Part shown: piece after piece, positions 34,572-58,543 of the stretch | Layout: each line of letters opens with the position of its first letter | Position numbering within the stretch: position 1 is the first letter of the stretch | Origin: Anaeromyxobacter dehalogenans 2CP-C | Lineage (GTDB): Bacteria > Myxococcota > Myxococcia > Myxococcales > Anaeromyxobacteraceae | Reading direction: 5' to 3' | Assembly (NCBI RefSeq): GCF_000013385.1 | Contig: NC_007760.1 | Location: forward strand, 3,446,001-3,510,000 | DNA length: 64,000 nucleotides | Translations under genes and position numbers: made by a program | The notes under the pieces: generated by a model | Told to the model about the DNA's origin: nothing | Databases searched by the model: none | The model's input: only the letters and a program-made list of their open reading frames with translations

Positions 34572-35864
34572 TCACTTCGCGTGACACTTGTTGCAGAGGC
34601 TGGTCTGGAAGCTGGCGAACGCGGTCGGCTCGCGGTCGTACATCGCCCCGCGCGTCTCGGCCCGGGTGCGCCCCTGGGCCACCGGCGCCCGCCCGGCCTC
34701 CCCGATGGCGTCGATCCCCGGCCACTGCCCGCTGGCCACGACGTACTCGCTCTTCACGTTCCAGCGCAGCGATGCGTCCCAGCCCGAGGCGTGCGCGCGA
34801 TGGCAGGAGAGACACATCACGTTCTCCTGCCCGCGCACCGGCCCGGTCCGGACCATCCCGTCGCTGGACGTGCTCGCCGCCAGCGTGGCACGGTCGGCGG
34901 TGCCCTCCTCGTACGGTACCAGCGACGTGTACGCGAGCACGTAGCTCCCGCCGAGGTCACCGGTCTTCACGTAGGCGTTGTACACGTTGGAGAGCATGCC
35001 CAGCTTCGCCGTGCTGCCGGAGGGGTGCATGAACTCCCCCGGACGCGTCGGGTTCGCCGGGGTGTGGATCGCGCCGTGGCAGTTGCCGCACCACTCGGAC
35101 ATCCCGCTGCCGTACGCCACACGGACGTCCGCGATCCGCTCGCCCTGGTTGTAGGCGCTGGGCGCGAGCGCGACGGGCGGATCCGCCGAGAACGCGTTGA
35201 CGCCCGCGAGCGTCCGCGGCTGGTAGCCGACGCCCGCCAGCATGCGGTACGTGCCGATCGCGGTGGTCTGGCTCGGCGTCACGTAAGCGCTGCGATCGCC
35301 GTAGGAGCCGGAGGCGACGACGGGTGCGCCGCCGGTGGCCACGACCCCGCCCTCCCGGACGCGGTACTTGCCGTGCGGATCGTGGCAGCTGACGCACGAG
35401 AGCTGGTTCGAGGGATAGCTGCCGCCCGGCGCGGTGGGGTGCCGGGGATCCGCGAAGCGCCCGTAGTCGGCGGCGACGACGTTGTGGCCGTGGGCGTCCC
35501 CCGGGCTCGTCTCGAGCCCCGCCGTGCCGGCCCAGGACCACGACTTCGTCAGCCACGCGAAGTCGCCGCCCGGCGTCATGTTGAGCGGCGCGGCGCCGGG
35601 CTGCACCGAGAGCGAGAGGACCGAGTGCGGCGCGGAGGACACGCCCGCGTGGCAGATCAGGCAGGTGGAGCTCGCGTCGGCCCCCTGGACCAGGCCCGAT
35701 CCCGAGGTCTTCGCCGCGCTGCCGTGCATCGTGTGGCAGCCTTCGCACCGGGCGGCGCCGCCGGAATGGAACGCCAGGGCGGGCGCTGCCGCGAGCAGCG
35801 CGACCGCTGCGGCGGCTGCGGCCGCGAGTCGACGAACCCCTGGCACTCGCCTCGACGCTGACAC
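34572..35864 (-). CDS. OmcS-like hexaheme c-type cytochrome, copy 1
   Basis: A 430-residue secreted cytochrome with six CXXCH motifs (CEGCH, CLICH, CVSCH, CGNCH, CLSCH, CNKCH). Throughout its length it matches Geobacter OmcS, the subunit of cytochrome nanowires: FHSGGAARCEGCHTMH after the signal peptide (cleavage after residue 31, ALA), NMTPGGDFAWL, GHNVVAADYGRFAD, YGSGMSEWCGNCH, FEEGTAD-like EEGTADRATL, CLSCHRAHASGWD and the C-terminal LCNKCHAK. The mature length of about 399 is close to OmcS (407). His16 of the mature chain, which in OmcS ligates a heme of the next subunit, is present. GTG 35864, behind AGAGGGATC, is preferred to TTG 35900. It is in the operon led by the prolyl isomerase. 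Confidence 0.93.
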   Translation of the reverse strand: MSASRRVPGVRRLAAAAAAAVALLAAAPALAFHSGGAARCEGCHTMHGSAAKTSGSGLVQGADASSTCLICHAGVSSAPHSVLSLSVQPGAAPLNMTPGGDFAWLTKSWSWAGTAGLETSPGDAHGHNVVAADYGRFADPRHPTAPGGSYPSNQLSCVSCHDPHGKYRVREGGVVATGGAPVVASGSYGDRSAYVTPSQTTAIGTYRMLAGVGYQPRTLAGVNAFSADPPVALAPSAYNQGERIADVRVAYGSGMSEWCGNCHGAIHTPANPTRPGEFMHPSGSTAKLGMLSNVYNAYVKTGDLGGSYVLAYTSLVPYEEGTADRATLAASTSSDGMVRTGPVRGQENVMCLSCHRAHASGWDASLRWNVKSEYVVASGQWPGIDAIGEAGRAPVAQGRTRAETRGAMYDREPTAFASFQTSLCNKCHAK

Positions 35865-35965
35865 GATCCCTCTGCCGCCGTCCTGCGGCTTGCTGTCCAA
35901 CCATCCATCGCTTGCGTCCCACGACCGGGCTACGTCGCAACGTTCCGCACCCGGCGCGGCCGCGC

Positions 35966-36928
35966 TCAGCGGCCATGCACAAGGAACGCGCTGACGCCCC
36001 GGTTTCCTCCCTGCGATACGAAGAGCACGCCGTTGCCGACCGCCATGTCGGTGGGGATGACCAGCCCCGCGTCACCGCCTGCGAACTCGCCGAGGAACTT
36101 GAGATCCGGCCCGAACACCATCACCACGCGCCGGAGCTGGTCCGCCACGAAGAGGTTCCCCTCCTCGTCGGCCACGATCGGCCCCACCACGTTGAAGAGC
36201 CCAGGACGGCTGCCGCGCTGGCCGAAGACGCGGAGCGTCCCGTCGGGCGCGAGGATGTACGCGTGGAACTGCGTGGGAATCGTGAACAGGACGTTGCCGC
36301 GGGGGTCCACGCTGAAGCCGTGCAGCTCGTTTCCGTCCGCCGGCACGGCGTCCAGCGCCAGCCGCGCGAGATCGACCGCGCGGACCGTGGCGCCCCGGAG
36401 ATCCGTCACGAGGAGCTTGAGCCTCGTGGTGTCGGCGAGGTAGACGAGCCCGTCCCGGTACGCCAGCCTCGTCGGCGCGAAGGCGCCGAGGCTCGGCGGC
36501 GCCGAGACCTGCAGCTCGCCGGTCTGCGTACCCCGAAAGTCGGCCCGCAGCACCCGAGGCCCATCGCGCTCGGACAGCAGCAGCAGGTCCCCGTTCTCGA
36601 TCACCGCGACCCCGCGCACCCAGCCGAGCTGGCCCTCGTCGCCGAACCGGTAGACCTCGACGCCGGTCCGGTTGAAGACGCGCACCCCCTCGCCCGGGGC
36701 GATGACGTAGAGCTCGCGACGGCCGGCGTCGTAGCCGAGCGTCGCCCAGCTCATGGCGATGGGCCCGTCCAGCGCCGCCACGTCGTACAGGTACGCCAGC
36801 GAGACGGGGCGCCTGGCGTCGCCCTCGCCGGGCGCGGGCTCCGCCGCCCGGGCCGCACGGGGGAGCGCCTGCGCGATCGCGAGCGCGGCAACGAGCGTGA
36901 TCGGGATGCGAGCCACTCGCCTCCTCAC
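35966..36928 (-). CDS. NHL-repeat beta-propeller protein, secreted
   Basis: A 320-residue exported protein. The signal peptide ends near residue 28 (AARAAEP). The mature part is made of six-bladed NHL-type repeats: LGYDAGRRELYVIAPGEGVRVFN, GWVRGVAVIENGDLLLLSE, FTIPTQFHAYILAPDG, VADEEGNLFVADQLRRVVMVF and DMAVGNGVLFVSQGGNRG. GTG 36928 overlaps the stop of the preceding propeller gene (GTGA). Beta-propellers are part of the Geobacter omcS-companion set (OscD), so a part in nanowire assembly or shape is a reasonable inference. It lies 101 nt upstream of the omcS-like gene. Confidence 0.87.
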   Translation of the reverse strand: MRRRVARIPITLVAALAIAQALPRAARAAEPAPGEGDARRPVSLAYLYDVAALDGPIAMSWATLGYDAGRRELYVIAPGEGVRVFNRTGVEVYRFGDEGQLGWVRGVAVIENGDLLLLSERDGPRVLRADFRGTQTGELQVSAPPSLGAFAPTRLAYRDGLVYLADTTRLKLLVTDLRGATVRAVDLARLALDAVPADGNELHGFSVDPRGNVLFTIPTQFHAYILAPDGTLRVFGQRGSRPGLFNVVGPIVADEEGNLFVADQLRRVVMVFGPDLKFLGEFAGGDAGLVIPTDMAVGNGVLFVSQGGNRGVSAFLVHGR

Positions 36929-37827
36929 CGGCCGGTGTCGAAGACCTGGATGCGGTCGTTGCCGCGATCCGCCACGAACACGGCGCCGTCCGGCTCGAAG
37001 CAGATCTGGGCGGGGTAGTAGACCAGGCCGGGGCCCCAGCCGAGCGCGAGCTGCCGCCCCTGGAACGAGCCGTCGGAGCCGAGGATCGCGATCCCGCCGC
37101 CATGCTGGTCCACGGCGTAGAGCTTGCCCTGGTGGAACGCGAGGTAGGTGGGGAAGCTCATCACGTCCTTGCGCGACTCGGTGAGGCGCTTGAACGCGGT
37201 CGCGCTCTTGTCCGCGATCCAGATCGCGGCGCCCACCGCGTCCACGGCGTACACCGTGCCGCCTCCGTCCACCGCCACGTCCGTGAACTGCGCGCCCTCG
37301 CGCGGCAGGTCGAGCTGCCGGATCACCTTGCCGGCCGCGTCGGTCACGAGCACTCGCGGCCCGAGGACGTCCAGGACGTACAGGTTGCCCGCGCCGTCCA
37401 CCTTGAAGCTGCCGGGGAGCACGCCGGCCGGCGCGCCCTGCAGGTCCACGTTGCCGAGGAAGGCTCCCTTCGCGTCGAGCCGCACGATCTTGCGCAGCTT
37501 CTCGTCGAGGACGAGCACCTCGCCCTTGGGATCGAGCTGCACGCGGTACGGGTACGGCACCTGGGCGAGCTTCACCTGGGTCCCGCCGCTGAGGGTCCCG
37601 TCACGGTAAGTGTACAGCAGCAGCCGGGCGTTGCCGGTGTCGGCGACGACGACGGCGCCGCCCGCCCCGCAGGCCACGCCTTCGGGCCGCCGAAGCTGGG
37701 CTTCCTTCGGATCGGAGTAGACGGTGGTCTGGTGGCGGAAGGCCTGGGCGGCGCCCACGGCCGGCCCGAACACCAGCGCGAGCCCCAACACCGACTGGAA
37801 CACGATCGCTCTCGACACGGGCGTCAC
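36925..37827 (-). CDS. NHL-repeat beta-propeller protein, secreted
   Basis: A 300-residue exported protein with a signal peptide ending near VGAAQA (residue 27) and NHL repeats across the rest: RRPEGVACGAGGAVVVADTGNARLLLY, YRVQLDPKGEVLVLDEKLRKIV, FKVDGAGNLYVLD, TDVAVDGGGTVYAVDA and ICFEPDGAVFVADRGNDRIQVFD. It is related to the next gene but distinct. GTG 37827 overlaps the stop of the 16-heme cytochrome gene (GTGA), and its own stop overlaps the next propeller. It is tightly coupled within the cytochrome operon. Confidence 0.87.
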   Translation of the reverse strand: MTPVSRAIVFQSVLGLALVFGPAVGAAQAFRHQTTVYSDPKEAQLRRPEGVACGAGGAVVVADTGNARLLLYTYRDGTLSGGTQVKLAQVPYPYRVQLDPKGEVLVLDEKLRKIVRLDAKGAFLGNVDLQGAPAGVLPGSFKVDGAGNLYVLDVLGPRVLVTDAAGKVIRQLDLPREGAQFTDVAVDGGGTVYAVDAVGAAIWIADKSATAFKRLTESRKDVMSFPTYLAFHQGKLYAVDQHGGGIAILGSDGSFQGRQLALGWGPGLVYYPAQICFEPDGAVFVADRGNDRIQVFDTGR

Positions 37828-39134
37828 CTCTTGAACGACTCGTGGCACTTCGTGCACAGGTCGGTGGTCGTCGGGAACGGCAGCATCTGCGCGTACTCGG
37901 TCCCGTGGGCGCGGTGGCAGCTCAGGCAGTCCACGTTCCGGTTCGGGTTGCGCGGGTCCTTCACCTTCTCGCCGATCGGGTGGGACGAGTGGCGCTGCCA
38001 GTCGTGGCACTTGCCGCACATCTCGATCCGGTTCGCCCCGGTGAGCATGAGCGGCGCGTCGGAGGAGTGCGGATCGTGGCAGGCCCCGCACTCCCCGGCG
38101 CCGACCGGCTCGTGCTTCGCCGGCGAGAGCTTCTGCCGCTTGATGGTGTCCGCGTGGCACTCGCCGCAGACCACCGTCAGGTTCGCCCGCGGCAGGCCCG
38201 CCTGCTTCGACGCGTGCGGGCCGTGGCAGGTCAGGCAGGCGTCGCCCTCCAGCACCGGCCGGTGCACCCGCGCCTTGGCGGTGAACTCGCCGATCTTCGG
38301 CGCGTGGCACAGCTTGCAGAGCTCGACGCCCGCCTGCTTCGGCTTGAAGCGGTTCGGCGAGCCGGGCGGCTCGTGGCACTGGGCGCACTGCCCGCGCGCG
38401 ACCGGCGGGTGGACGTGGTCGTAGAGCATGCCCGGCTTGTTCGAGCCGTGCGGGTCGTGGCAGGTCGTGCAGCGCGCCTTCCCGACCGGGTAGTTCATGT
38501 GCTTCTTCAGGAAGATGGCGCCGTCCGGGCGGTGGCACCCGACGCAGAGGTCCGGCGCGTCCTTCTTGAGCAGGCTCGGCGCGGCCGCGGAGCCGTGGAT
38601 CTCGTGGCAGGTCGCGCAGTCGTTCTCGACCGGCTTGTGCTTCACCTTCGCCGCCACGATGCCGTCCACCAGGTTCTTGTGGCAGCCGGCGCAGAGCTCC
38701 GCCCCGCCCTTCAGCAGGTTGTTCTTGAAGTTCGAGGCGTGCGCGGCGTGACAGCTCGCGCACTTGCCCTCGCTCACCGGGGCGTGGAGGCTCTTCGCCG
38801 AGGCCGGGATCATCCCGCCGTGGCACCGGGCGCAGATCTGACCGCCGGTGTCCGCGAGCAGCTTGCCGTGGTCCGAGGCGTGCGGGTTGTGGCAGCCGAC
38901 GCAGTCGCGCGTCCGGACCGGCGTGTGCACCGACTTCTGCGCGAGCTTCTGCTCGAAGTCCGCGTGGCAGTCGAGGCAGAGCTTGCCCTCGGCGCCGGTC
39001 TTCAGGCGGTACGGGTTGCCCTGCTTCGGCGCGGCCGCGGCGGGCTGGGCCTTCGCCGGCGGAGCCTTGGGCGCGCCCAGCGCCGGGCCGGCCGCGGCGA
39101 GGAACACGAGGAGGAGAGCGGTTCGCGAGCGCAT
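37824..39134 (-). CDS. 16-heme c-type cytochrome
   Basis: A 436-residue exported protein with 16 CXXCH motifs. A signal peptide (LLLVFLAAAGPALG) is followed by a Lys/Pro/Ala-rich linker, then regularly spaced paired motifs in the Paired_CXXCH style (CVGCHNPHASDHGKLL, then CARCH), with the heme sites from about residue 60 to 432. There are many extra His for bis-His ligation. Likely periplasmic or surface, forming a linear heme wire that feeds or connects with the filament. ATG 39134 is 8 nt after the stop of the 26-heme gene. Confidence 0.93.
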   Translation of the reverse strand: MRSRTALLLVFLAAAGPALGAPKAPPAKAQPAAAAPKQGNPYRLKTGAEGKLCLDCHADFEQKLAQKSVHTPVRTRDCVGCHNPHASDHGKLLADTGGQICARCHGGMIPASAKSLHAPVSEGKCASCHAAHASNFKNNLLKGGAELCAGCHKNLVDGIVAAKVKHKPVENDCATCHEIHGSAAAPSLLKKDAPDLCVGCHRPDGAIFLKKHMNYPVGKARCTTCHDPHGSNKPGMLYDHVHPPVARGQCAQCHEPPGSPNRFKPKQAGVELCKLCHAPKIGEFTAKARVHRPVLEGDACLTCHGPHASKQAGLPRANLTVVCGECHADTIKRQKLSPAKHEPVGAGECGACHDPHSSDAPLMLTGANRIEMCGKCHDWQRHSSHPIGEKVKDPRNPNRNVDCLSCHRAHGTEYAQMLPFPTTTDLCTKCHESFKR

Positions 39135-39142
39135 GGGTCCTC

Positions 39143-41113
39143 TCACTTCCCGCCGACCGGCAGGTGACAGCTGTCGCACTGGCGCGCGGCGAAGGGCGGG
39201 TGGACCGCCGTCTTGAGGAACTTCGGGTCCTTGGACGAGTGCGGGTCGTGGCACGCCACGCAGTGCATGACCTTCGCGTCGATGCCGGCGTGGCGGGTCG
39301 AGAACTGCGACGCCTTCACGTCGTGGCACTGCTCGCAGAGCGCCAGCACCGGTTCGCTGGTGAGCTTGGGCTGCGCCGACTGGTGCGGCGAGTGGCAGGA
39401 GAGGCAGTCGTCGGCGGGCGCGTGCCGGGTCTCCCCGGCCATCTTCTCCTTCTGCTTGGTGTGGCAGGAGAAGCAGAGGTCCGGGCCGGCCGCGTTGAGC
39501 AGGCCCTTCAGCTTGGCGCCGTGCGGGTTGTGGCACTTGGTGCACTCCCCCGACGCGAACGCCGCGTGGACGCTCTTGGCCGAGTCGGAGTTCGCCGCCA
39601 CCTTGGCGTGGCAGGACAGGCAGAGCGCCTTCTGGTCCTTCACGATCATCCCGCCGGCGTTCGAGCCGTGCGGATCGTGGCAGGTCAGGCAGGCCCCCTC
39701 GGCGAACGGCTTGTGGACCACGCCGGCGGAGGCGAGCTTCATGAGCTCGCCGTGGCACCCCTGGCACATCTTCGCGCCGTCGGTCTTCAGCAGCTTGGGC
39801 CGGTCGGCCGAGTGGCCCGCGTGGCAGGCGCTGCACTTGCCCTCGATCACCGGCTTGTGCGTGTGCGCCTTCACGAACCGGGTCTCCGCGTCGGCGTGGC
39901 ACCCGAAGCACAGCTTGTCCTGGCGCGACGCGGTCATGCCCGGGAAGTCCGAGCCGTGCGGATCGTGGCAGGTGGCGCAGTCACCGTCCTTGAACGGCAC
40001 GTGGACGACCTTGCGCTTGGCCTGGTCGGCGACCTTCGGGTGGCAGGCGGCGCAGCCCTTCGAGACGTCCGTCGCGAGGAGGCCCTTCACCGGCGCCGCG
40101 TGCGGCTGGTGGCAGCCGAGGCAGGCCTTCGGGCCGGACATCGCCTTGTGGCTGACGAGCTTCCTGGCGTCCTTGCCCGGGTGGCACCCGGCGCAGAGCG
40201 CGGCGCCCGGCGCCCGGGTCATGGCGGGGTTGTTCGAGGCGTGCGGATCGTGGCAGGCGACGCACTCCTCCTTGCGCACGGGCGCGTGGACCACCTTCTG
40301 GCCCTTGGTGACGTCCTTCGCGTCATGGCAGTTGGCGCACAGCTTGCCGCCCGCCTCCTGCACCGCGAACGGCTTCGGGCTGCCCGGCGCGGCGTGGCAC
40401 TGATCGCAGCCGCCGGAGAGCGCCGAGTGGACCGAGGCCTTCATGAGCTTCGGCTGGTCGGACGAGTGCGGCTCGTGGCAGGCGCTGCAGCGCTTCCCGG
40501 CCACCGGGTACCCGCCGTGCGCCTTGGCGAACCCGCCGGAGGTGGGCGCGTGGCACTTCACGCAGAGCTGCCCCTCCTCCGCCTTGAGGAGCGCCTTCTG
40601 CGCCGAGGCGTGGGTGGCGTGGCACGCGCCGCAGCCCTCCTTCGCGAGCACCGGGTGCACGTTCTTCCGCTCGAACGCCTTGCGGTCGTGACACTCCCAG
40701 CAGGCGGCGCTCCCCTCCGCCTTCAGCATGTGCGGCGCGTTCGAGCCGTGGACGGCGTGACACTGCGTGCACGAGCCGGTCTTCAGGACCGCGTGGACGT
40801 TCGGCTGGTCCATGCCGATGGACGCCGGCTTGTGGCACGAGTAGCAGAGCTTGTTCCCGCTCTCCTTGAGCAGGAGCTTCGGGACGATGCCGTGGCGCTG
40901 GTGGCAAGCCTCGCACTCGCCCTTCTTCACCGCCTCGTGCGTGTACCGGAAGGCGGAGAACTTCTTCGCCTCCTCGGTGTGGCAGTCGAGGCACTCCTTC
41001 CGCTTGAACTTGCGATCGGCGGCGCCCGCCCCCGCGGGCGCCAGGAGCACGCCGGCGGTGACGGCCGCCAGCGCGAGGATCCGCCAGAGTCTCATCGTGC
41101 GCGTCACGGCCAT
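39143..41113 (-). CDS. 26-heme c-type cytochrome
   Basis: A 656-residue exported protein with 26 CXXCH motifs, one per 25 residues. A signal peptide (about residues 1-31, cleaved near AGAA) is followed by repeated Paired_CXXCH units such as CHDPHGSDFPGM and CHAGHSADRPKLLK. The sequence relates it to the 16-heme protein next to it, which probably arose from the same unit by duplication. Heme attachment needs the Ccm system, not in this window. The start may be ATG 41113 or 41095. It lies 22 nt after the prolyl isomerase gene. Confidence 0.93.
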   Translation of the reverse strand: MAVTRTMRLWRILALAAVTAGVLLAPAGAGAADRKFKRKECLDCHTEEAKKFSAFRYTHEAVKKGECEACHQRHGIVPKLLLKESGNKLCYSCHKPASIGMDQPNVHAVLKTGSCTQCHAVHGSNAPHMLKAEGSAACWECHDRKAFERKNVHPVLAKEGCGACHATHASAQKALLKAEEGQLCVKCHAPTSGGFAKAHGGYPVAGKRCSACHEPHSSDQPKLMKASVHSALSGGCDQCHAAPGSPKPFAVQEAGGKLCANCHDAKDVTKGQKVVHAPVRKEECVACHDPHASNNPAMTRAPGAALCAGCHPGKDARKLVSHKAMSGPKACLGCHQPHAAPVKGLLATDVSKGCAACHPKVADQAKRKVVHVPFKDGDCATCHDPHGSDFPGMTASRQDKLCFGCHADAETRFVKAHTHKPVIEGKCSACHAGHSADRPKLLKTDGAKMCQGCHGELMKLASAGVVHKPFAEGACLTCHDPHGSNAGGMIVKDQKALCLSCHAKVAANSDSAKSVHAAFASGECTKCHNPHGAKLKGLLNAAGPDLCFSCHTKQKEKMAGETRHAPADDCLSCHSPHQSAQPKLTSEPVLALCEQCHDVKASQFSTRHAGIDAKVMHCVACHDPHSSKDPKFLKTAVHPPFAARQCDSCHLPVGGK

Positions 41114-41135
41114 TCCCTCGCTGGAGGACCCCGCC

Positions 41136-42899
41136 TCAGTTGCCGATGCGGGTGATGAACGTCTCGATGTCGTGCGCGGCGCGCAGCTTCGCGGCCCAGT
41201 CCGTCACCGCGCGGTTCAGCGCCTGCCCGAACAGCTTCTTCTGGATGTCCTTCCGGGCCTCCTCGTACGGCTGGACCTGCGGGTCGGTGCGGGACACCAC
41301 CAGCACCACGTACCCCTGCCCCCGGGGACCCTGGTGCATGCGGTAGTCGCCGACCTGCGCGGACGCGAGCGCCCCCGCGAGATCCTCCGGGAGCCCCTTG
41401 GCGGAGAGGAGCTGGCCCTCGAAGTCGAGCGCGCGCTGTGCCGGGGCGAGCTGCCCCTCCGCGTTCGCCTTGAGCCACTTGAAGTCGGTGCCGCGGGCGA
41501 GCCGCTCGGCGGCCCGCTGCGCGCCCTTCATGTCGGGGAACGCGAGCTGGTCGAGCCGGTACAGCGGCGCCGCGGTGAACTCGTCGCGGTGGCCGTCGTA
41601 GTACGCCCGCAGGTCGGCGTCCTTGATGGAGACGTCCGGCACCAGCACGCGCTGGACGAACGTGCCGAACACGAGCGAGTTCTCCTGGTCCGCGACGGCC
41701 CGCAGGTACTCCTCGGACTGGTCGAGCTTCCGGACGCGCGCCTCCTTCGTGAACACGCGCTTGTAGATGAGCCCGTCGAGCCGCGGCCGCTTGAGCTTGT
41801 CCACCCGCTTCTCCTGCTGCGGCTTCTCCACGCCGTGGAAGAACTTCTCGCCGACCGCGTTGGCGAGGTCGCTGACCGTGATGGGCGCCTCGCCGGCGAT
41901 CCGGGCGATGGGCCGCTTGTCCTTCACGAGCACGGCGAACCCGGGCTTCGGCGCATCGAAGTCGATCTTCCGGAGCAGGGCCTCGTCGATCTTCACGTAC
42001 TTCCGGTCGAGCTCCTTGCGAAACGCGATGAGGATCTGCCCGCCCTGGCGGTCGATGGACGCCGCCTCGGCCTCGGCCCGCTTGGCCGGATCGTCGGGGT
42101 AGACGAGGTCCTCCACGTAGAGGATCGCGAACCCGTTCTGCAGCTTCAGCGGCGCCGTGACCTCGCCCTTGTGCAGCGGCTGGAGCGCGGCCGCCACGGC
42201 GGGCAGGATCTGATCGGGCGGCAGGACCTCCGGCTCGCCGCTGCCGTCCGCCTTCTTCTCCGCGACGAGCTGCTTCGCCAGCTCGACGAAGCTCTTGCCG
42301 CCGGCGAGGGCCGGCTTCACCGCAGCGGCATCCTCCTCCTTCTGGAAGAGGAGCGAGCGCACCTTCCAGCGCCGCACCGACTCCTTGTAGACACGCTCGA
42401 CCTCGAGCGCGTCCGGCTTGACGTCCTTCGTCACCTGCTGCTGCAGCGTCTCGCGTAGCGTCACGTCCTTGAAGACCGCCAGCTGCTCCTTCAGCTCCGG
42501 CAGCTCGTCCAGCCCCATCTCGCGCGCCTCCATGATCAGCAGCCGCGAGTCGATGATGCGCTGGAGCACCACCTTGAAGTCCGGCGCGGTGGCGGCCCCT
42601 GCGCTCCGCTCACCGTGCGTCGAGGCCAGGGCCTCCTGGAGGTCCGCGAGCGGGACGACCTGGTCGTCGATGCGCGCGATCGGCATGCGCGCGAAGAGCG
42701 GCGAGAACAGGGGAGCCTCGATGCGCGCCGTCATCGGCGCCGGCTTGGCGGCGGCCGCCGGTTCGGCTGCCTTCGCCGGCTGGGCCGTCGCGCCGGGGCC
42801 GGACGGTTTGGACGGCTCCGCCGCGAAGATCATGCGGGGCGCGGTGAACGCGAGAACGGCGACGAGCAGGGAGCGGGACGTGACGGGCGGAATGGTCAT
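41136..42899 (-). CDS. Parvulin-type peptidyl-prolyl isomerase (OscH-like candidate)
   Basis: A 587-residue exported protein with a signal peptide (LLVAVLAFTAPRMIFA) and an Ala/Pro linker. A SurA/PpiC-like layout follows: an N-terminal helical chaperone region (about 75-170), a parvulin-like segment at about 185-280 (LLFQKEEDAAAV ... NGFAILYVEDLV) and a second one at about 440-550 (LDQLAFPDMKGA ... GYVVLVVSRTDPQ). It likely helps exported cytochromes fold or stay unpolymerised in the periplasm, the role reported for OscH next to omcS in Geobacter. It heads the operon; ATG 42899 lies just behind a sigma-54-like promoter. Confidence 0.88.
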   Translation of the reverse strand: MTIPPVTSRSLLVAVLAFTAPRMIFAAEPSKPSGPGATAQPAKAAEPAAAAKPAPMTARIEAPLFSPLFARMPIARIDDQVVPLADLQEALASTHGERSAGAATAPDFKVVLQRIIDSRLLIMEAREMGLDELPELKEQLAVFKDVTLRETLQQQVTKDVKPDALEVERVYKESVRRWKVRSLLFQKEEDAAAVKPALAGGKSFVELAKQLVAEKKADGSGEPEVLPPDQILPAVAAALQPLHKGEVTAPLKLQNGFAILYVEDLVYPDDPAKRAEAEAASIDRQGGQILIAFRKELDRKYVKIDEALLRKIDFDAPKPGFAVLVKDKRPIARIAGEAPITVSDLANAVGEKFFHGVEKPQQEKRVDKLKRPRLDGLIYKRVFTKEARVRKLDQSEEYLRAVADQENSLVFGTFVQRVLVPDVSIKDADLRAYYDGHRDEFTAAPLYRLDQLAFPDMKGAQRAAERLARGTDFKWLKANAEGQLAPAQRALDFEGQLLSAKGLPEDLAGALASAQVGDYRMHQGPRGQGYVVLVVSRTDPQVQPYEEARKDIQKKLFGQALNRAVTDWAAKLRAAHDIETFITRIGN

Positions 42900-42917
42900 G
42901 TGGGCGGCCGACCTCGG

Positions 42918-42933
42918 TGCAACGGTTGTGCCT
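42918..42933 (-). promoter_or_regulatory. Sigma-54-type -24/-12 promoter
   Basis: On the minus strand AGGCAC-AACCG-TTGCA matches the consensus TGGCAC-N5-TTGCW at every base but the first, with the GG and GC pairs in exact spacing. The predicted start is near 42907, only about 8 nt before the prolyl isomerase ATG, so the leader would be very short. An AT-rich stretch with the palindrome CGAAAATTTCG lies upstream at about 42954-42964. Confidence 0.6.
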
Positions 42934-43057
42934 CGCAACTACCGTGTAACATACGAAAATTTCGGAAGTTTTTCGCGGGGAGCGAGTCCGTCGGGCGCAA
43001 TGATTGCGCGCCGCGACGGATTCCCGCAGCGGCTGTCGGCGAGCGCGCTCCCGCCCG

Positions 43058-44245
43058 TCATCGGGCCCCGTATTCGCGGCGGGCGGAGCTCCGCGTCCGG
43101 CTTCGCGTGGGAGTCCCATCGGCGCCGCCCGAGCCTGGCGCGATTCGCAGATCCATCCCGTCCACCACCGACGCGGCGACGCGGCACAGGACGTCCGCCG
43201 AGTTCCGGACGAGGCCGAAATCGAACCACCAGACGCCGTCGGCGCCGTCCCCCTCCGACACCGAGCTCCACGCCACGACCTCGTGGGCGCGATCGAGCAC
43301 CTGGACCGTGAGCTCCACCCGCGCGGCGCCGGAGGGCCCCCCATCCTCGTACCGCCGCACCACGCCGGCGATCACCAGGTCGGCATCGAGCTTGTCGAGC
43401 ACCGTGCTCGCGACGTCCACGGAGACGCCGCCCGGCATGAGCAGGCGGTTCGCCAGCAGCACCGACCGGACCAGGCCCGGTTCGACGACCTCGACCGCGG
43501 GCGAGGCCGAGAGCTGCCGGACCAGCTCGAGCGTGGCCGCGTCGCCGGCGCTGCGACGGCGCGTCTCGTTGATGAACGGCAGGACCGCGACCTTGAACGG
43601 CCCCTCGCGCAGCCGGGGCGAGCGGAACACCAGCCGCGGCCGGTAGCGCCGCTCGGGCTCGCACCGGCTGGCGCGCGCGCCGCCGTGAAGGAACGCCCGG
43701 AGCGAGCGGCCGAGCCGGTCGAGCACGATGCGCTGGACGCGCGCCTGATCTCGGATCAGCCCCAGGCCGAGCAGCCCCGGCCGTTCGTCGCCGGAGCGCA
43801 CCGCGCCGTCGATCCAGAGGATCCGCGGCGGCTCGCCGGTGGACACGAGCCGGAGCGTGACCGCGAGCCTGGGAGGGGACTGCGGCTGGTAGGCACCCAC
43901 CGCGGCGATGACGATCGCATCCGCGCCGAGCTCCTCGCGCGCCGCGACCGCGGTCTCCGCGTCCACGCCGCTCGTGTTGCGAACGCGGTGCCGGGCCAGG
44001 AACTCCTCGACCGCCTTGCGCGGCACCACCTCGAGCCCGGCGCGCGCGACGGTGTCCTCGATGGCGCGGTCGAGGTCCTCCGCCGGCGCGGCCCCCCCGC
44101 CGACGTTCACGGTCGGAAACACGGCCACCCGCGCAGGCGCCGGGCCCGTGGCGACGGGTACGCGCGCTCCGCCGCAGCCTGCGCCCGACACCGCGAGCGC
44201 GAGCAGCAGCGCCGTCCTAGTGGAACAGCTGCGATAGGAGGTCAT
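43058..44245 (-). CDS. CsgG/GNA1162-like lipoprotein, two-domain
   Basis: A 395-residue lipoprotein with lipobox SGAGC (Cys at about 24). Two segments look alike in pattern: ARVAVFPTVNVGG...LGADAIVIAAVGAY (about 38-115) and FKVAVLPFINETRRR...LDADLVIAGVVRRYEDG (about 215-310). Each resembles the alpha/beta fold of CsgG- or GNA1162-type lipoproteins, some of which form outer-membrane pores. It overlaps the next upstream gene by 29 nt, with GGAGG before ATG 44245. By position it may form the outer-membrane channel for cytochrome export (compare the channel-like OscEFG). The function is an inference. Confidence 0.7.
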   Translation of the reverse strand: MTSYRSCSTRTALLLALAVSGAGCGGARVPVATGPAPARVAVFPTVNVGGGAAPAEDLDRAIEDTVARAGLEVVPRKAVEEFLARHRVRNTSGVDAETAVAAREELGADAIVIAAVGAYQPQSPPRLAVTLRLVSTGEPPRILWIDGAVRSGDERPGLLGLGLIRDQARVQRIVLDRLGRSLRAFLHGGARASRCEPERRYRPRLVFRSPRLREGPFKVAVLPFINETRRRSAGDAATLELVRQLSASPAVEVVEPGLVRSVLLANRLLMPGGVSVDVASTVLDKLDADLVIAGVVRRYEDGGPSGAARVELTVQVLDRAHEVVAWSSVSEGDGADGVWWFDFGLVRNSADVLCRVAASVVDGMDLRIAPGSGGADGTPTRSRTRSSARREYGAR

Positions 44246-44804
44246 CGACCGCCTCCTCGGTGATCCGGTTCACCGGCTCCCCTCCGCTCCCGAGGAGCCG
44301 GTCGCCGAGCGACACCCCTCCCTTGGTCGACTGCCCCGACCAGACCACCTTCCCGGTGGAGGCTTCGAGCATCTGCGCGCTGATCGAGACCACGTTCGAG
44401 GCGGTCGTGCCGGACCGGACCTCCCCGTACTCCTTGACCACGCCGACGATCACCGCGTCGGCCTTGAGCACCGAGCCGAGCTTCACCACCTCGTCCACGG
44501 AGGGGCTGGTCGGGAGCGCGACGCCGGCGCGCGCGATCCCGCGGGCGACCTCGCCGGGCGGCAGCACGTAGATGCCACCGGTCGCCAGGAGCGCGCTGGA
44601 GAACACGTCGCGTACGCGGTCGGCCGCCGCGGCCTCGCGCGTCAGGTTCGAGAACGGCATCACCGCCACCGTCCGGATCGAGCCGAAGTCCATGTTGGTG
44701 TCGTGGTACACGCGGCCGGAGGAGCGGCAGGCGGTGACTGCGACGAGCAGCGTCAGCGCCAGGCAGGTGGAGACGCAGGTGGAGATCGGGGTTCGGGTCG
44801 TCAT
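44217..44804 (-). CDS. CsgG/GNA1162-like lipoprotein, single-domain
   Basis: A 195-residue lipoprotein with lipobox AVTAC (Cys at about 26). The mature part follows the GNA1162/DUF799 pattern: RTVAVMPFSNLTREAAAADRVRD, GGIYVLPPGEVARGIARAG, LKADAVIVGVVKEYGEV and ASTGKVVWSGQ. These proteins share a fold with the curli secretion channel CsgG. It starts 24 nt after the barrel gene stop and overlaps the two-domain relative; the three probably act as one outer-membrane assembly. Confidence 0.75.
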   Translation of the reverse strand: MTTRTPISTCVSTCLALTLLVAVTACRSSGRVYHDTNMDFGSIRTVAVMPFSNLTREAAAADRVRDVFSSALLATGGIYVLPPGEVARGIARAGVALPTSPSVDEVVKLGSVLKADAVIVGVVKEYGEVRSGTTASNVVSISAQMLEASTGKVVWSGQSTKGGVSLGDRLLGSGGEPVNRITEEAVDDLLSQLFH

Positions 44805-44828
44805 GGCATGCTCGAGCGTGCGTCGCGT

Positions 44829-47042
44829 TCAGGAGAGCGTCAGGAAGAGATGGAGCATGAGCGAGTCCGTTCTCGTCCTGCTCTGCGGGGAACGGTTGTC
44901 GATGTTCGAGTAGTTGAGGTCCAGGTACGCGCTCGGCCGGACGTTCCAGCGAACGCTCCCGCTCGTGGACTTCGTGGTCGCGTCGGCGGCGTCGTCGGAG
45001 GTCTCCTGGTGCTGCGCGGTCAGGACCAGGTCCCCGCCGCGCAGCGGCGCGTACGAGACGAGGTAGTTCCAGAGCAGGCGGGGGCTCGTTCCGGACTGGG
45101 TGGACCTCGTGGCGCCGGCGGTGGCGAGCAGCGCGGGGAACGGGGTGAACGTCACCAGCCCGGAGGCCTGCTGCCCCTCCGAGTCGCGCACGCGCGCTCC
45201 GACCTCCGTGCGCGCCCGGCTGTAGGCGTACGTTCCGGACAGGTTCAGCGCGCGGTTCGGGACGATCGAGGTGGTCGCGGAGGAGAACGTCGTCCGCGTG
45301 GACGACCCCAGCCCCGAGACGTAGGACTGGCCGGCGTTCCCGGTCACGCTCAGCCCCTGGTACAGGTCCGCGCGCGCGAAGACGGTGGCCGCGTTGCGGA
45401 GCTGCTCACCCTCGCTGCGCTGCGACCAGCCGCCGGAATAGGTGGCCCCTGCGGACGCGGCCGGGATCGGGTTGACGCCGAGCGAGGTGCCCCAGTCGAA
45501 CTGCCCGGAGTGCTCGCCGCCGGACTGGCTGTCGGTTCGTGCCACGCGCGCGGTGAGCGTCGCCGTCCGGTGCAGCCGCTGCGTGAGCCCGAGGCCGTTC
45601 GCGACCGTCCACGCCGCGGAGGTCCCGCTGGTCTTGGCCAGCTGGAAGCTGAGATCGTGCCTCAAGGCCGGTGAGTCCAGCAGCCGGGTGGTCACGGTGC
45701 CGCTCACCGCGTTCGTGAGACTGGTGCTTCGACCCGCGACCGACGCCGCGGACACCTCTTCGAACAGCATCACGTCGGTGACGAGGATCGCCCCGAGCGC
45801 CGGGTCCGTGGTCACCGTGGTGGCGATCGGTCGGGTCACGACCTTCAGGTACTTCGACCGGGTCCGCTGGACGGGGATCTCGAAGCGGTTCTGGAACGGC
45901 CCGAACGACACCGCGCCGTCCAGGGGCACCGGCACCCAGTTGACGTTGTCGTCGCTCCGCCAGGCGGACCACTCGACCGCGCGCCAGACCGACTCCGGGA
46001 GCAGTCGATCCACCCAGACCTGCACGAGGTTCACCGGCTCGAGCGGCTCCGCCATCTCGACGCCGAGGTCGCGCTGCGCCGTGTCGCCGGCCAGCGTTCG
46101 CTGGAAGCCGAGGTCGATCCCGACGCTCGCCTGCACGTTCCCGTCCACCAGCGCCGGGTTGGCCCTGAGCGTGTCGGTGGAAGGGATGTCCGGGAACGCC
46201 TCGACGAGCGACAGCCCGGAGAGCGGCGGTCGCTGCGTCCGCACCGTCCCCAGCGCCGAGGTGGCCTTGGTCTGTGAGATCGAGCTCTGCAGCCCGTAGG
46301 TGAGATACGCGTTGGAACGCTCCTCGAAGAAGCGGCGCCGGTACGTCGCGGTCGCGACCTGGCCGAGCGTCCAGGTGCTGGTGTCGTCGACCCGATCATC
46401 GACGGTGCTGTACGTCGTCGCGTAGGAGAGGCCCACCTCGCTCGTCGGCGAGTACGTGGCCGTGACCCCGGCGGTCGTGCTGGACGTGTCGTACTGGGTA
46501 CGAGCCTCGTCGAACTGGTTGGCCCGGCTCAGGCGGAGGTTCAGGCTGGGAAGATCCGCCGGATCCCACCGCATGGACGCGCCGTAGGTCTCGCTGACCA
46601 GCGTGGGCACGCGCGTCCGCTGGCGGCCGCCATTCGCGGACTCGACGCTGTACTTCGCGTCCACGGTGTCGCGATCGTACGTGAAGCTGCCGCCCAGCGT
46701 CCTCCCACCCCACCCGAGCCCCGTCGAGAGCGTCCACTCCTGGCGCGTGCTGTCCGACGACGCGCCTTCGGTGTCGGACCAGACCTCGTCCCGCAGGATC
46801 ATCCCGTTGGCCCGCCACTGCAGGGCCTCGCTGAAGGACTTGTCCAGGCCGAGCCGGTACTGCTGGGTGAGGCTCTGCGAATCGGTCGTGGTCGTGAGGC
46901 CCGTCGCGTCGGTGAGCCGCAGCCGCGTGAGCGCATAGGTCGGCTCGGCGGCGGCGGTGAGGCCGTCGGCGCGGGTGGCGCCCGGTCCGAGCCCGGCGGC
47001 CGCGACGAGGAGGAGGGGCATGGTTCGCAGCGCTCCCCTCAA
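44829..47042 (-). CDS. Large outer-membrane beta-barrel candidate with discoidin-like insert
   Basis: A 737-residue exported protein. The signal peptide is RTMPLLLVAAAGLGPGATRA. The mature chain alternates short polar and aromatic strands typical of outer-membrane barrels (LTQQYRLGLDKSF, TLGGSFTYDRDTVDAKY, GVTATYSPTSEVGLSYATTY), ending with a strand-like C-terminus (SLMLHLFLTLS). About residues 335-430 interrupt this with a F5/8 type C-like stretch (WRSDDNVNWVPV, SKYLKVVTRPI, TDVMLFEEV). TTG 47042 overlaps the previous stop (TTGA) with GGGGAG upstream; ATG 47021 is the alternative. It could be the pore for a porin-cytochrome conduit. Confidence 0.75.
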   Translation of the reverse strand: MRGALRTMPLLLVAAAGLGPGATRADGLTAAAEPTYALTRLRLTDATGLTTTTDSQSLTQQYRLGLDKSFSEALQWRANGMILRDEVWSDTEGASSDSTRQEWTLSTGLGWGGRTLGGSFTYDRDTVDAKYSVESANGGRQRTRVPTLVSETYGASMRWDPADLPSLNLRLSRANQFDEARTQYDTSSTTAGVTATYSPTSEVGLSYATTYSTVDDRVDDTSTWTLGQVATATYRRRFFEERSNAYLTYGLQSSISQTKATSALGTVRTQRPPLSGLSLVEAFPDIPSTDTLRANPALVDGNVQASVGIDLGFQRTLAGDTAQRDLGVEMAEPLEPVNLVQVWVDRLLPESVWRAVEWSAWRSDDNVNWVPVPLDGAVSFGPFQNRFEIPVQRTRSKYLKVVTRPIATTVTTDPALGAILVTDVMLFEEVSAASVAGRSTSLTNAVSGTVTTRLLDSPALRHDLSFQLAKTSGTSAAWTVANGLGLTQRLHRTATLTARVARTDSQSGGEHSGQFDWGTSLGVNPIPAASAGATYSGGWSQRSEGEQLRNAATVFARADLYQGLSVTGNAGQSYVSGLGSSTRTTFSSATTSIVPNRALNLSGTYAYSRARTEVGARVRDSEGQQASGLVTFTPFPALLATAGATRSTQSGTSPRLLWNYLVSYAPLRGGDLVLTAQHQETSDDAADATTKSTSGSVRWNVRPSAYLDLNYSNIDNRSPQSRTRTDSLMLHLFLTLS

Positions 47043-48460
47043 CGGCGCTCCCCGGACAGCGCGAGATCGTAGGGTTCGCGCCCGACCTCGAACAGGCCGA
47101 CCTGGCGCTGCGCGGTGAGATCGACGACCGAGACGGCCCGCCGATCCGGCAGGAGCGCGAACAGCAGGCTCTGCGTCGCGTCGAAGACCAGGAACGAGGC
47201 CGCGCCGCCCACGTCCACGCCGCCGAGCGGCACCAGCGAGAACGGGTCGAACACCGCGAGCGCGGGGCTGCCCGCCTGCGCGACGTAGAGGAGGTCGGTC
47301 CGGGGATCGACGAGGATGGCGGTCGCCCCCAGCCCCACGAACAGGCGGCCCGCCGGCGCGAGCTCGGGGAGCGTGTAGATGGACAGGTAGGCCGACCCGG
47401 CGTGGACCACGAACAGGCGGGAGCCGTTCCGGTCGAGGTCGCCGCGGAGCGGCTCGGGCTCGGCCGCCGCCGAGCCGACGGCGGCGCGGCGCGTGACGTC
47501 CACGGCGGTGACCGTGTTGGAGCGCCGCCCGAACACGTAGGCGCGGTGGCGCTGTGCGTCGAGCCGCAGCGACCAGGGCTCCTCGCCCACCGCCACTCGA
47601 CCCACCTCGACGCGTGCGCTCGTGTCCAGGAAGGAGACGGTGCTGGAGCGCCGGTTCACGACCAGCAGCGTCCGGCCGCCCTCTACGAGGGTGACGTCGA
47701 ACGGACCGTCGCCGGGGCGCAGCCGGATCGGCTCGCGCACCTGCCCGTTCGTGAGGTCCAGCACCTCGATCCGGTCCTCGAGGGAGAGCGCCACGTACGC
47801 GAGGTTGGCGCCTTCGTCCATGGCCACGCCCGCGGGCCCCATGCCCGTCGCGATCGCGGCGGTCACCTGGCGGTCGTACCGGTCGAAGGCGAGGAGCACG
47901 TTGTCCGCGGTGCTCGCGCAGTAGCCGAGCCGCTGCGGGTGCGTCGTCTCCGGCGCCAGCAGCGAGAAGCGCGGCGCGAAGGCGACCTCGTCGCCGGCCG
48001 GCTGCGCCTCGCGGAGGACGAGCCACAGCACCTGGGCGCGGCCGGGCGTGACCGTGAAGGACGCGGGCACCTGCACCGCCTCGGAGCGTACCAGCAGATC
48101 GGCGGGTCCGTCCGGCGTCTCCATGCGAGCGCGCCCGACGTGGAGGCGGAGCCCGGCATAGTTGCCCGCGGGGAGCCGGGCGTGCGCGAGGAGCCGCTGC
48201 CGGCCGTTGCCGTGGCGGCCGACCTCGGAGAGCGCTGCCCGCATCGGCTGCGCGGCGGCCTCCCCCGGCCCGACGGCCTCGACCGCCGTGACGCCGAACG
48301 TCACGTTCTCGACCTCCCGCGCGAGCGGCTGCAGGAAGACGTAGAGGTCGCCGTCGGCGCCGAGCGGCCCCGGGTTCGCGGAGCGTCCGCGCACCGCCGA
48401 GCACCCCGAGCCGCCGATGGCCAGCAGCAGTGCGAGCGCGGCGCCTCGATGTCGGACCAT
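47039..48460 (-). CDS. YVTN-type beta-propeller lipoprotein
   Basis: A 473-residue lipoprotein (lipobox IGGSGC, Cys at about 20). Residues 40-170 form a DUF4382-like beta domain (ADGDLYVFLQPLAREVENVTFGV). From about 180 on come YVTN-like blades: VLLAFDRYDRQVTAAIATGMGP, LAYVALSLEDRIEVLDLTNGQV, RAYVFGRRSNTVTAVDVTRRA, LYVAQAGSPALAVFDPFSL. A propeller fixed to the outer membrane fits the OscD-like role reported for omcS clusters. It starts 81 nt after a strong terminator that separates it from the second omcS-like gene. Confidence 0.83.
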   Translation of the reverse strand: MVRHRGAALALLLAIGGSGCSAVRGRSANPGPLGADGDLYVFLQPLAREVENVTFGVTAVEAVGPGEAAAQPMRAALSEVGRHGNGRQRLLAHARLPAGNYAGLRLHVGRARMETPDGPADLLVRSEAVQVPASFTVTPGRAQVLWLVLREAQPAGDEVAFAPRFSLLAPETTHPQRLGYCASTADNVLLAFDRYDRQVTAAIATGMGPAGVAMDEGANLAYVALSLEDRIEVLDLTNGQVREPIRLRPGDGPFDVTLVEGGRTLLVVNRRSSTVSFLDTSARVEVGRVAVGEEPWSLRLDAQRHRAYVFGRRSNTVTAVDVTRRAAVGSAAAEPEPLRGDLDRNGSRLFVVHAGSAYLSIYTLPELAPAGRLFVGLGATAILVDPRTDLLYVAQAGSPALAVFDPFSLVPLGGVDVGGAASFLVFDATQSLLFALLPDRRAVSVVDLTAQRQVGLFEVGREPYDLALSGERR

Positions 48461-48540
48461 GGGCGACCCCCGACCCCACTTTGCCACGACGCGCGAGCCC
48501 GTTCCATCGGGGCCGGGACGTCCCGGTGGCGATCCGCACA

Positions 48541-48579
48541 AAAGAAAGGAGGGAGCCGCATGCTGCGCGGCTCCCTCCG
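48541..48579 (-). terminator. Strong intrinsic terminator behind the second omcS-like gene
   Basis: A perfect 12-bp stem (48568-48579 with 48549-48560) is followed on the minus strand by TTTCTTTT. It begins 26 nt after the stop codon at 48606. It is the most convincing T-tailed terminator in the window. Confidence 0.85.
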
Positions 48580-48605
48580 AGTCCAGCTACGTCAGCAAGC
48601 GACCA

Positions 48606-49916
48606 CTAGTCCTTCGCGTGGCACTTGTTGCAGAGCGACTTCTGGAACGTCGAGTAGGCGGTCGCCGGGCGGTTCTGGTGCGCCGCCTGGATGATCGCCG
48701 AGCTGCGCCACTCACCGCGGGCGCCGGCCTCGACGCCGTAGTACTCGCCGGCCTCGATGATGAACTCCTTGTCGGCCCAGCGGAGCGCGAACTCGTACGG
48801 CGACGCGTGCGCGCGGTGGCAGGAGAGGCACATCACGCCGCTGGTGCCGGCGACGGCGGTGATGGACGGGGTGCCCGTGATGCCCACGGCCTCGGCCTCG
48901 AGGGAGGCGCGGTCGGCGGCGTGCTGCTCGAAGGGGACGATCGCGTCGTACGCGTTCGAGCCGGTCAGGTCGCCCGACTTGAGGTAGGTGTTGTAGTTGG
49001 CAGCCACCGTGGCGCTCATCGTGGCGGTGTTGCCGGCCGGGTGCTTGAAGATCTGGCCCGAGGTGTTGGTGTTGTTGTGCATGCCGGGGTGGCAGGTGGC
49101 GCACCACTCGGACATGCCGCTGCCGTACGCGACCACGACCTGGCCGGCGCGCGTCGTGGCGTTGAAGGTGTTGAGCTCGGACGAGTTGTAGCTGGACGGC
49201 GCGACGGCGACCGGCGGGCTGACCGTGAACGCCGGCTGCGTGGCCGAGGACTTCGGCTGGTAACCGACGCCGGCGAGGAGGCGGTACGCGCCCATCGCGG
49301 TGCCGGCGGGGAGCGCGCCACCGATCGGGTAAGAACCGGACTCGGCGATCGGCAGGCCCGTCACCGGGGCGCCGGTCGCGTCGAAGCGCGCCTTGCTGTG
49401 CGGGTCGTGGCAGGAGACGCAGGAGAAGTTCGCGCCGTTGTACACGCCGGCAACGTCACCGGCCGGAGCGGCGGCGCGGGTGTCGGCGACCATGCCGGGG
49501 TAAGCGGCCGCGATGACCGAGTGGCCGAAGCGCCGCTGGTTGCGCGTGCCGAAGCCGGTGTTCGCCTGCCAGGCGAAGTCGCCGCCCGGGGTGAAGTTCA
49601 CCATCGTCGCCGTGAAGGTCGCGGTGGTGGCCGTCTGGAGCGAGGGCTCGTAGACATGGTAGCTGCTCACGCCGGCGCGGCCGTGGCAGATGAGGCAGGT
49701 CGAGCTCGGGTCCTGACCCTGGAGCAGGTAGGCGCTGGCCTGCCCGATCGTCGGGTTGTTGCCCATCACCGTGGACGCGGTGCCCGCGCCGGCCGTGGTG
49801 GAGTTGTGCATCGTGTGGCAGCCCTCGCACTGGGCGACGCCGCCGGCGTGGAAGGCATACGCGCGGCCCGAAACGAGCGCGAGCGCTGCAACGATTGCGA
49901 TACGCGTGAACTTCAT
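48606..49916 (-). CDS. OmcS-like hexaheme c-type cytochrome, copy 2
   Basis: A 436-residue exported cytochrome with six CXXCH motifs (CEGCH, CLICH, CVSCH, CATCH, CLSCH, CNKCH). It is the closer of the two to OmcS at the start (AYA cleavage, then FHAGGVAQCEGCHTMHNS) and shares NFTPGGDFAW, LLAGVGYQPKS, VAYGSGMSEWCATCH, CLSCHRAHAS and the final LCNKCHAKD. Mature length is about 415, against 407 for OmcS. His16, the inter-subunit heme ligand in OmcS, is present. ATG 49916 follows AGAGGGGACACG. It stands alone between a 413-nt leader region and a strong terminator, the layout of a highly expressed structural gene. Confidence 0.95.
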   Translation of the reverse strand: MKFTRIAIVAALALVSGRAYAFHAGGVAQCEGCHTMHNSTTAGAGTASTVMGNNPTIGQASAYLLQGQDPSSTCLICHGRAGVSSYHVYEPSLQTATTATFTATMVNFTPGGDFAWQANTGFGTRNQRRFGHSVIAAAYPGMVADTRAAAPAGDVAGVYNGANFSCVSCHDPHSKARFDATGAPVTGLPIAESGSYPIGGALPAGTAMGAYRLLAGVGYQPKSSATQPAFTVSPPVAVAPSSYNSSELNTFNATTRAGQVVVAYGSGMSEWCATCHPGMHNNTNTSGQIFKHPAGNTATMSATVAANYNTYLKSGDLTGSNAYDAIVPFEQHAADRASLEAEAVGITGTPSITAVAGTSGVMCLSCHRAHASPYEFALRWADKEFIIEAGEYYGVEAGARGEWRSSAIIQAAHQNRPATAYSTFQKSLCNKCHAKD

Positions 49917-58333: not shown

Positions 58334-58543
58334 GGGTGGAGCCTCCCCCGGCTGTGAGATCCGGGGCATCCGGTATCAGCCCACGGCACCTGCCTTCCTT
58401 GCCGCGCGTCAAATTCGTGACCCGTCCGTGTTGACGCGCTGGACGCAGCGGTCGCCGGCAACACCTCTCGGGGGAGCGGCGCATCGCCTCCAGCGGATCG
58501 AGCTTGGTCGATTGCCGTGCCCGCTTCGCGCACGGGGGTGACC

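Follow-up and report, generated by a model that had tools for sequence, protein, structure and literature searches.

A probable osc-type (omcS-companion) gene cluster with OmcS-like hexaheme cytochromes in Anaeromyxobacter dehalogenans 2CP-C

A stretch of 64,000 nucleotides of Anaeromyxobacter dehalogenans 2CP-C (the window: positions 3446001-3510000 of one contig of 5,013,479 bases) carries, at positions 34572-49916, a locus that is well supported as an osc-type (omcS-companion) cluster outside the Desulfuromonadales. Its probable role is to produce hexaheme cytochromes of the OmcS type and to send them out of the cell, most likely in the form of extracellular filaments that pass electrons to minerals or electrodes. 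The features that speak for this reading are (i) homology of the hexahemes to OmcS, with its putative heme ligands, (ii) the osc gene order, (iii) co-occurrence of cluster members across genomes, (iv) a PelC fold, (v) a SurA-like chaperone, (vi) a match to MtrA, (vii) a conserved hairpin, and (viii) the reported glycosylation of OmcS filaments. The published 5.01 Mb genome of the strain encodes 68 c-type cytochromes (PMC2330069). Recent reviews continue to describe the export and assembly of cytochrome nanowires as speculative (PMC12307469), and a second bacterial lineage here offers, in a fully sequenced genome, a compact and conserved cluster as an independent test case.

All genes of the locus lie on the minus strand, and two OmcS-like genes, A and B, flank the block. 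The sequence-only reading of this DNA had proposed such a pair, and the gene calls and matches to OmcS (PDB 6EF8) bear it out. The parvulin, the two NHL propellers, the YVTN propeller lipoprotein, and the barrel that it named are present by Pfam, profile, or model evidence, and its 16- and 26-heme cytochromes are confirmed by exact CxxCH counts (6 in A, 26, 16, and 6 in B). In order of transcription, with window positions and expectation values (E), the features are as follows.

48606..49916, minus strand: OmcS-like hexaheme cytochrome A (oscC position); 6 CxxCH, PDB 6EF8 at E 4e-80 over 35-449, 12 putative His ligands, mature start FHAGG
48548..48578, minus strand: GC-rich hairpin with a 13 base pair (bp) stem, then TTTCTTTTGT; terminator/attenuator-like, downstream of OmcS-like A and ahead of the propeller gene
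47039..48460, minus strand: lipoprotein with a YVTN beta-propeller and a weak DUF4382 match (OscD position)
44829..47021, minus strand: large outer-membrane beta-barrel (OscE position) with ~28-29 strands and a beta-sandwich domain as an insert, from an AlphaFold model and fold matches
44217..44804, minus strand: PelC/GNA1162-like lipoprotein 1 (OscF position); Pfam PF05643 at E 8e-11 and PDB profile matches
43058..44245, minus strand: PelC-like lipoprotein 2, fold duplicated in tandem (OscG position), from an AlphaFold model and the PelC profile
41136..42899, minus strand: SurA/PrsA-like periplasmic parvulin with two prolyl isomerase (PPIase) regions (OscH position), from Pfam and SurA profile matches
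39143..41113, minus strand: 26-heme periplasmic-type cytochrome with MtrA/DmsE-like repeats (OscI position); 26 CxxCH, TIGR03508
37824..39134, minus strand: 16-heme cytochrome (OscJ position); 16 CxxCH
36925..37827, minus strand: NHL propeller 1 (OscK position, by order alone); Pfam NHL at E 7e-11, conserved place after the 16-heme gene
35966..36916, minus strand: NHL propeller 2; Pfam NHL
34572..35864, minus strand: OmcS-like hexaheme cytochrome B; PDB 6EF8 at E 3.5e-107, 12 putative His ligands, mature start FHSGG

Short intergenic gaps (-29 to 158 bp) and a third-position GC of 0.92-0.98 in every frame, all of them intact, indicate that these genes are real and operon-like. The arrangement is not due to chance, since both hexahemes match OmcS 6EF8 and the order is kept across genera and phyla. 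A sigma-70 promoter scan of the locus region found no promoters, and none are expected by chance at 72% GC.

The matches of A and B to OmcS extend over the whole mature protein, with full-length identities of 46% and 49%, respectively. OmcS contains 17 histidines, five of which are not conserved in the family according to an alignment of 20 homologs. The other 12 (the six of the CxxCH motifs plus H2, H16, H110, H147, H257, and H335 of the mature protein) are kept in 19-20 of the 20 homologs and are all present in both A and B. Because OmcS has 12 His axial ligands, one of which is donated by the neighbouring subunit (PMC6584659), the twelve conserved histidines of A and B are presumably the heme axial ligands. 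Six hemes, this predicted ligand set, and the mature N-terminus FH.GG are thereby shared with OmcS (PDB 6EF8, 6NEF), a likeness seen at the level of sequence. In a maximum-likelihood tree of OmcS and its homologs (OmcT, OmcJ, and OscC were not part of the set), OmcS nests among the Myxococcota proteins, from which it follows that the polymer-forming ability could be ancestral.

The osc cluster of Geobacter sulfurreducens provides the closest comparison. PMC13194489 equates oscC with the hexaheme gene GSU2501, oscI with GSU2495, and oscJ with GSU2494, and assigns OscH to folding, OscE-G to secretion, and OscD to morphology. The letters track the gene numbers (six letters from C to I, six genes from 2501 to 2495), which would place D at GSU2500, E-G at GSU2499-2497, and H at GSU2496. 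According to Shen et al. 2025, OscD is reportedly a beta-propeller and OscH a prolyl isomerase. As described in PMC12977616, an eight-gene block, GSU2500-2493, stands behind GSU2501 in every Geobacter genome that has GSU2501, and GSU2495 is a protein of ~70 kDa with 26 hemes. In the window, the hexaheme gene A sits just upstream of the block, 145 bp before the propeller gene, which is the oscC position. Next come the propeller, the three proteins of channel type, the prolyl isomerase, and the 26-heme and second cytochromes, an order that agrees with the published osc classes. Identical classes in identical places, down to exactly 26 hemes and compared with GSU2501-GSU2493 by way of the published descriptions, are strong evidence for an osc-type cluster and uphold the earlier proposal of such a system beyond the Desulfuromonadales. 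The two clusters differ in the second OmcS-like gene, which is at the 3′ end here, whereas Geobacter has omcS-omcT at the 5′ end. In addition, an immunoglobulin-like (Ig-like) lipoprotein gene and TMTC-like genes adjoin the Anaeromyxobacter cluster.

Relatives were searched with the window proteins as queries, and several of the copies recovered are partial where a contig ends. The nine-gene order from the OmcS-like gene to NHL1 recurs elsewhere in the Myxococcota, in relatives at the level of the genus, family, order, and phylum, some of which carry two copies, and the relatives' clusters keep order and heme counts at 30-60% identity. NHL1 follows the 16-heme gene in all complete Myxococcota copies; NHL2 either precedes the OmcS-like gene or follows NHL1. 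The proposed description of the cluster as enlarged is weak, because NHL2 sits in almost all of the relatives' clusters, leaving only two extras, a further OmcS-like gene and the Ig-like lipoprotein. Among the 195 Myxococcota genomes searched, the OmcS-like gene occurs in 18, the barrel in 17, and both in 16; the three exceptions (G012, G149, and G023) are cases in which a short contig stops at the cluster.

Recognisable versions outside the Myxococcota occur in four genomes (G235, G349, G362, and G219). Phylum-wide searches place G235, G219, and the Myxococcota in three separate phyla and G349 and G362 in none of these, so that the cluster spans at least four phyla. In these versions some members are weak or undetected, for example the propeller in G349, and the block of G235 is interrupted by extra genes. 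A search for a Geobacter-like OmcS through the phyla reached, with OmcS, a Geobacter-like 16S fragment, and the RpoB of the A. dehalogenans genome as queries, found none near Geobacter OmcS. One scan of genome contigs with OmcS-like A returned only Anaeromyxobacter sp. PSR-1 (97% identity of one protein); plasmids yielded nothing, and one scan of viral contigs yielded no relative. The phylum of G219 (L115-L144) harbors OmcS-like cytochromes in 26 of 80 genomes, often several in each, which form a divergent set.

The three channel-type proteins are a barrel and two lipoproteins. Lipoprotein 1, in addition to its Pfam family, matches the PDB profiles of GNA1162 (E 1e-6) and PelC (E 1e-4). For lipoprotein 2, no Pfam family reaches significance, and its profile matches PelC (E 3e-6). 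Its AlphaFold model (predicted local distance difference test, pLDDT, 86) consists of two PelC folds in tandem, with PelC on top in Foldseek, a VIA Z of 16.4 and a root-mean-square deviation of 2.4 Å over 138 residues versus PelC 5T11, and CsgG structures scoring lower. The Pfam CsgG profile finds no match in either lipoprotein at E up to 0.1. Thus, of the two CsgG-like lipoproteins in the sequence-only reading, the lipoproteins stand, and the CsgG family is rejected in favor of the GNA1162/PelC profile and PelC fold matches; PelC/GNA1162-like is the better name for both. A barrel and PelC-fold lipoproteins are shared with the PelBC exporter (PDB 9H80; PelC 5T0Z, 5T10, 5T11) and suggest a concrete exporter model. 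In contrast to PelBC, there are two lipoproteins here, one of them a tandem duplication, the barrel has ~28 strands, and the expected cargo is a cytochrome instead of a polysaccharide.

The AlphaFold model of the barrel (pLDDT 89, predicted template modelling score 0.69) has 29 long strands besides the inserted beta-sandwich, and its closest structures are generic barrels that include LptD, PapC, MtrB, and small porins. Its score against MtrB (6r2q_B; Z 13.5) is level with those of unrelated barrels, and because of this tie with LptD, PapC, and porins the barrel is not accepted as a proven MtrB homolog. The parvulin is assigned by Pfam Rotamase_2 (E 5e-26) and Rotamase (E 3.6e-7), which mark its two PPIase regions, and by SurA profile matches (E 5e-14).

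The 26-heme protein scores 311 bits against NCBIfam TIGR03508 (MtrA/DmsE; cut-off 192) and finds the MtrA chain of the PDB (6r2q_A) with E 9e-17. The molecule name of this chain, “Cystathionine beta-synthase”, looks like a deposition error, as the entry is the Mtr complex. The counts of 26 and 16 hemes are constant in every intact, unfused copy of the cluster, and such invariant partners with MtrA-like repeats suggest how a filament could be charged. In G219, a single open frame with 42 CxxCH motifs (L112 2602-5748, minus strand) fuses the 26-heme and 16-heme partners, which suggests that the two proteins may work as one unit. With MtrAB(C) (PDB 6R2Q) the locus has in common the MtrA/DmsE-type repeats and a large barrel of unproven kinship. 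It differs from that system in its 26 hemes versus 10 and in the presence of a chaperone and PelC-like parts.

The hairpin and T-run at the junction of the OmcS-like and propeller genes are present in all 17 Myxococcota copies examined and also in G235. Its place is kept, and the stem sequences differ between copies. A strict scan recovers most of the junction hairpins with few matches elsewhere in 531 kilobases (kb), and shuffled sequence gives 0.05 matches per 19.7 kb. Geobacter omcS is transcribed both alone, as a monocistronic message, and with omcT (PMC2680965). In the simplest reading, the hairpin would be a partial terminator that holds the subunit in excess, which would account for plentiful filament subunit and scarce machinery from a single operon. 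Stabilization of the messenger RNA is an alternative role.

Several points weigh against this reading of the cluster as an osc-type maker of filaments. OmcS-like A and B each occupy a long branch of their own in the hexaheme tree, and neither is nearest to OmcS. The Geobacter Osc proteins were compared through their published descriptions, the generic barrel model could represent an electron conduit, and neither expression nor filament data turned up for this locus. OscC, too, could be a protein that builds no wires, and among four homologs in Geobacter OmcS alone is known to form them. Sequence alone cannot decide whether A or B polymerizes, and the same warning appears in PMC12977616, according to which its profiles cannot pick authentic OmcS outside a genus.

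The strongest competitor, itself unlikely, is a porin-cytochrome conduit of the MtrCAB kind, in which the 26-heme protein is threaded through the barrel or docked within it, and the hexahemes serve as reductases at the cell surface without ever polymerizing. It is favored by the MtrA and TIGR03508 matches of the 26-heme protein and by a barrel that, with ~28 strands, is near MtrB in size and counts MtrB among its fold matches. However, LptD, PapC, and small porins match the barrel equally well, a conduit needs neither a SurA-like chaperone nor a PelC-like ring, and the hexahemes keep the putative ligand set that in OmcS takes in one inter-subunit histidine (PMC6584659). Somewhat less probable still is a machinery whose hexaheme cargo leaves the cell as monomers, either soluble or on the surface, with true wires having arisen only in some lineages, such as that of Geobacter OmcS. 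According to PMC12977616, GSU2501 is present wherever the block is, OmcS is not always, and one option offered is that secretion came first; the distance of the window proteins from OmcS in the tree agrees with this view. The retention of all 12 putative ligands, the full-length identity of 46-49% with OmcS, and the nesting of OmcS inside the Myxococcota homologs, by which polymer formation could be ancestral, argue the other way. That the cluster has decayed or lies idle, with no function today, would fit the lack of expression data and is highly improbable in view of intact frames, coding-like third-position GC, and conservation of order and heme counts in diverged relatives. Export of OmcS-type hexahemes, most likely as filaments, is the preferred reading.

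The interval 34572-49916 contains the genes attributed to it by the sequence-only reading, which omitted three adjoining ones.

30748..34569, minus strand: lipoprotein with ZU5 and ten Big_9 Ig-like repeats, 2 bp downstream of OmcS-like B
50330..52138, minus strand: TMTC-like multi-spanning (GT-C type) candidate glycosyltransferase with a TPR tail; TPR Pfam matches, invariant DD in the first loop
~52140..54158 (homology 52434-54158), minus strand: second TMTC-like gene with TPR matches, start not fixed; 45% identity to the 50330-52138 gene

Multi-spanning, TPR-tailed genes such as the two TMTC-like genes of the window lie within ~15 kb of the cluster, or inside it, in 11 of 15 genomes, with several inside the block in G235. 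In relatives they are found at L040, L041, L042, L044, L047, L048/L049, L055, L058, L062, L075-L077, L108, and L109, and a background sample of 400 kb of the same genome contains none. The DD pair in the first loop is invariant across 12 of these neighbours, as it occurs in GT-C/PMT enzymes. Pfam TMTC_DUF1736 is hit by one neighbour, below the cut-off (E 0.29). OmcS filaments are reported to be glycosylated (PMC9473688), and it is hypothesized that the TMTC-like neighbours glycosylate the filament, which makes them candidates for the enzyme responsible.

A mechanism can be proposed in which the parvulin would escort the hexaheme across the periplasm and the PelC-like lipoproteins would form a ring beneath the barrel, as PelC does under PelB, to guide the subunit outward. 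The propellers would operate at the point of exit or on the filament itself. The 26- and 16-heme proteins, being MtrA-like, would relay electrons over the periplasm to the base of the filament. The hairpin would end most transcripts behind the OmcS-like gene, leaving the subunit in large excess over the machinery, and the TMTC-like enzymes may glycosylate the filament. That all of these parts form a single combined machine, comprising a PelC-ring/barrel exporter with its chaperone, a 26+16-heme bridge that charges the filament, a transcription stop, and a coat added by a TMTC-like O-glycosyltransferase, is a tentative proposal and rather doubtful as a whole.

The type of system is already known, given that OmcS and PpcA-E homologs of A. 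dehalogenans have been published (PMC10954620) and that Shen et al. 2025 reportedly call the osc machinery “widespread” in their title. The literature consulted, outside Shen et al. 2025, does not mention a PelC fold, a hairpin conserved at this junction, TMTC-like genes nearby, or the resemblance of the 26-heme partner to MtrA, and no claim is made that these features are unpublished.

Two further neighbours of the cluster deserve mention. The ZU5/Big_9 lipoprotein has the same place in G001 and G004 and is looser in other relatives, several of which have related N-terminal regions near the cluster, often in another orientation. Two genes upstream of the cluster, at 54341-58369 on the minus strand, a 33-heme cytochrome of 1342 residues with GSu_C4xC__C2xCH repeats is encoded, and it has a counterpart in G004 (L039 8178-12206).

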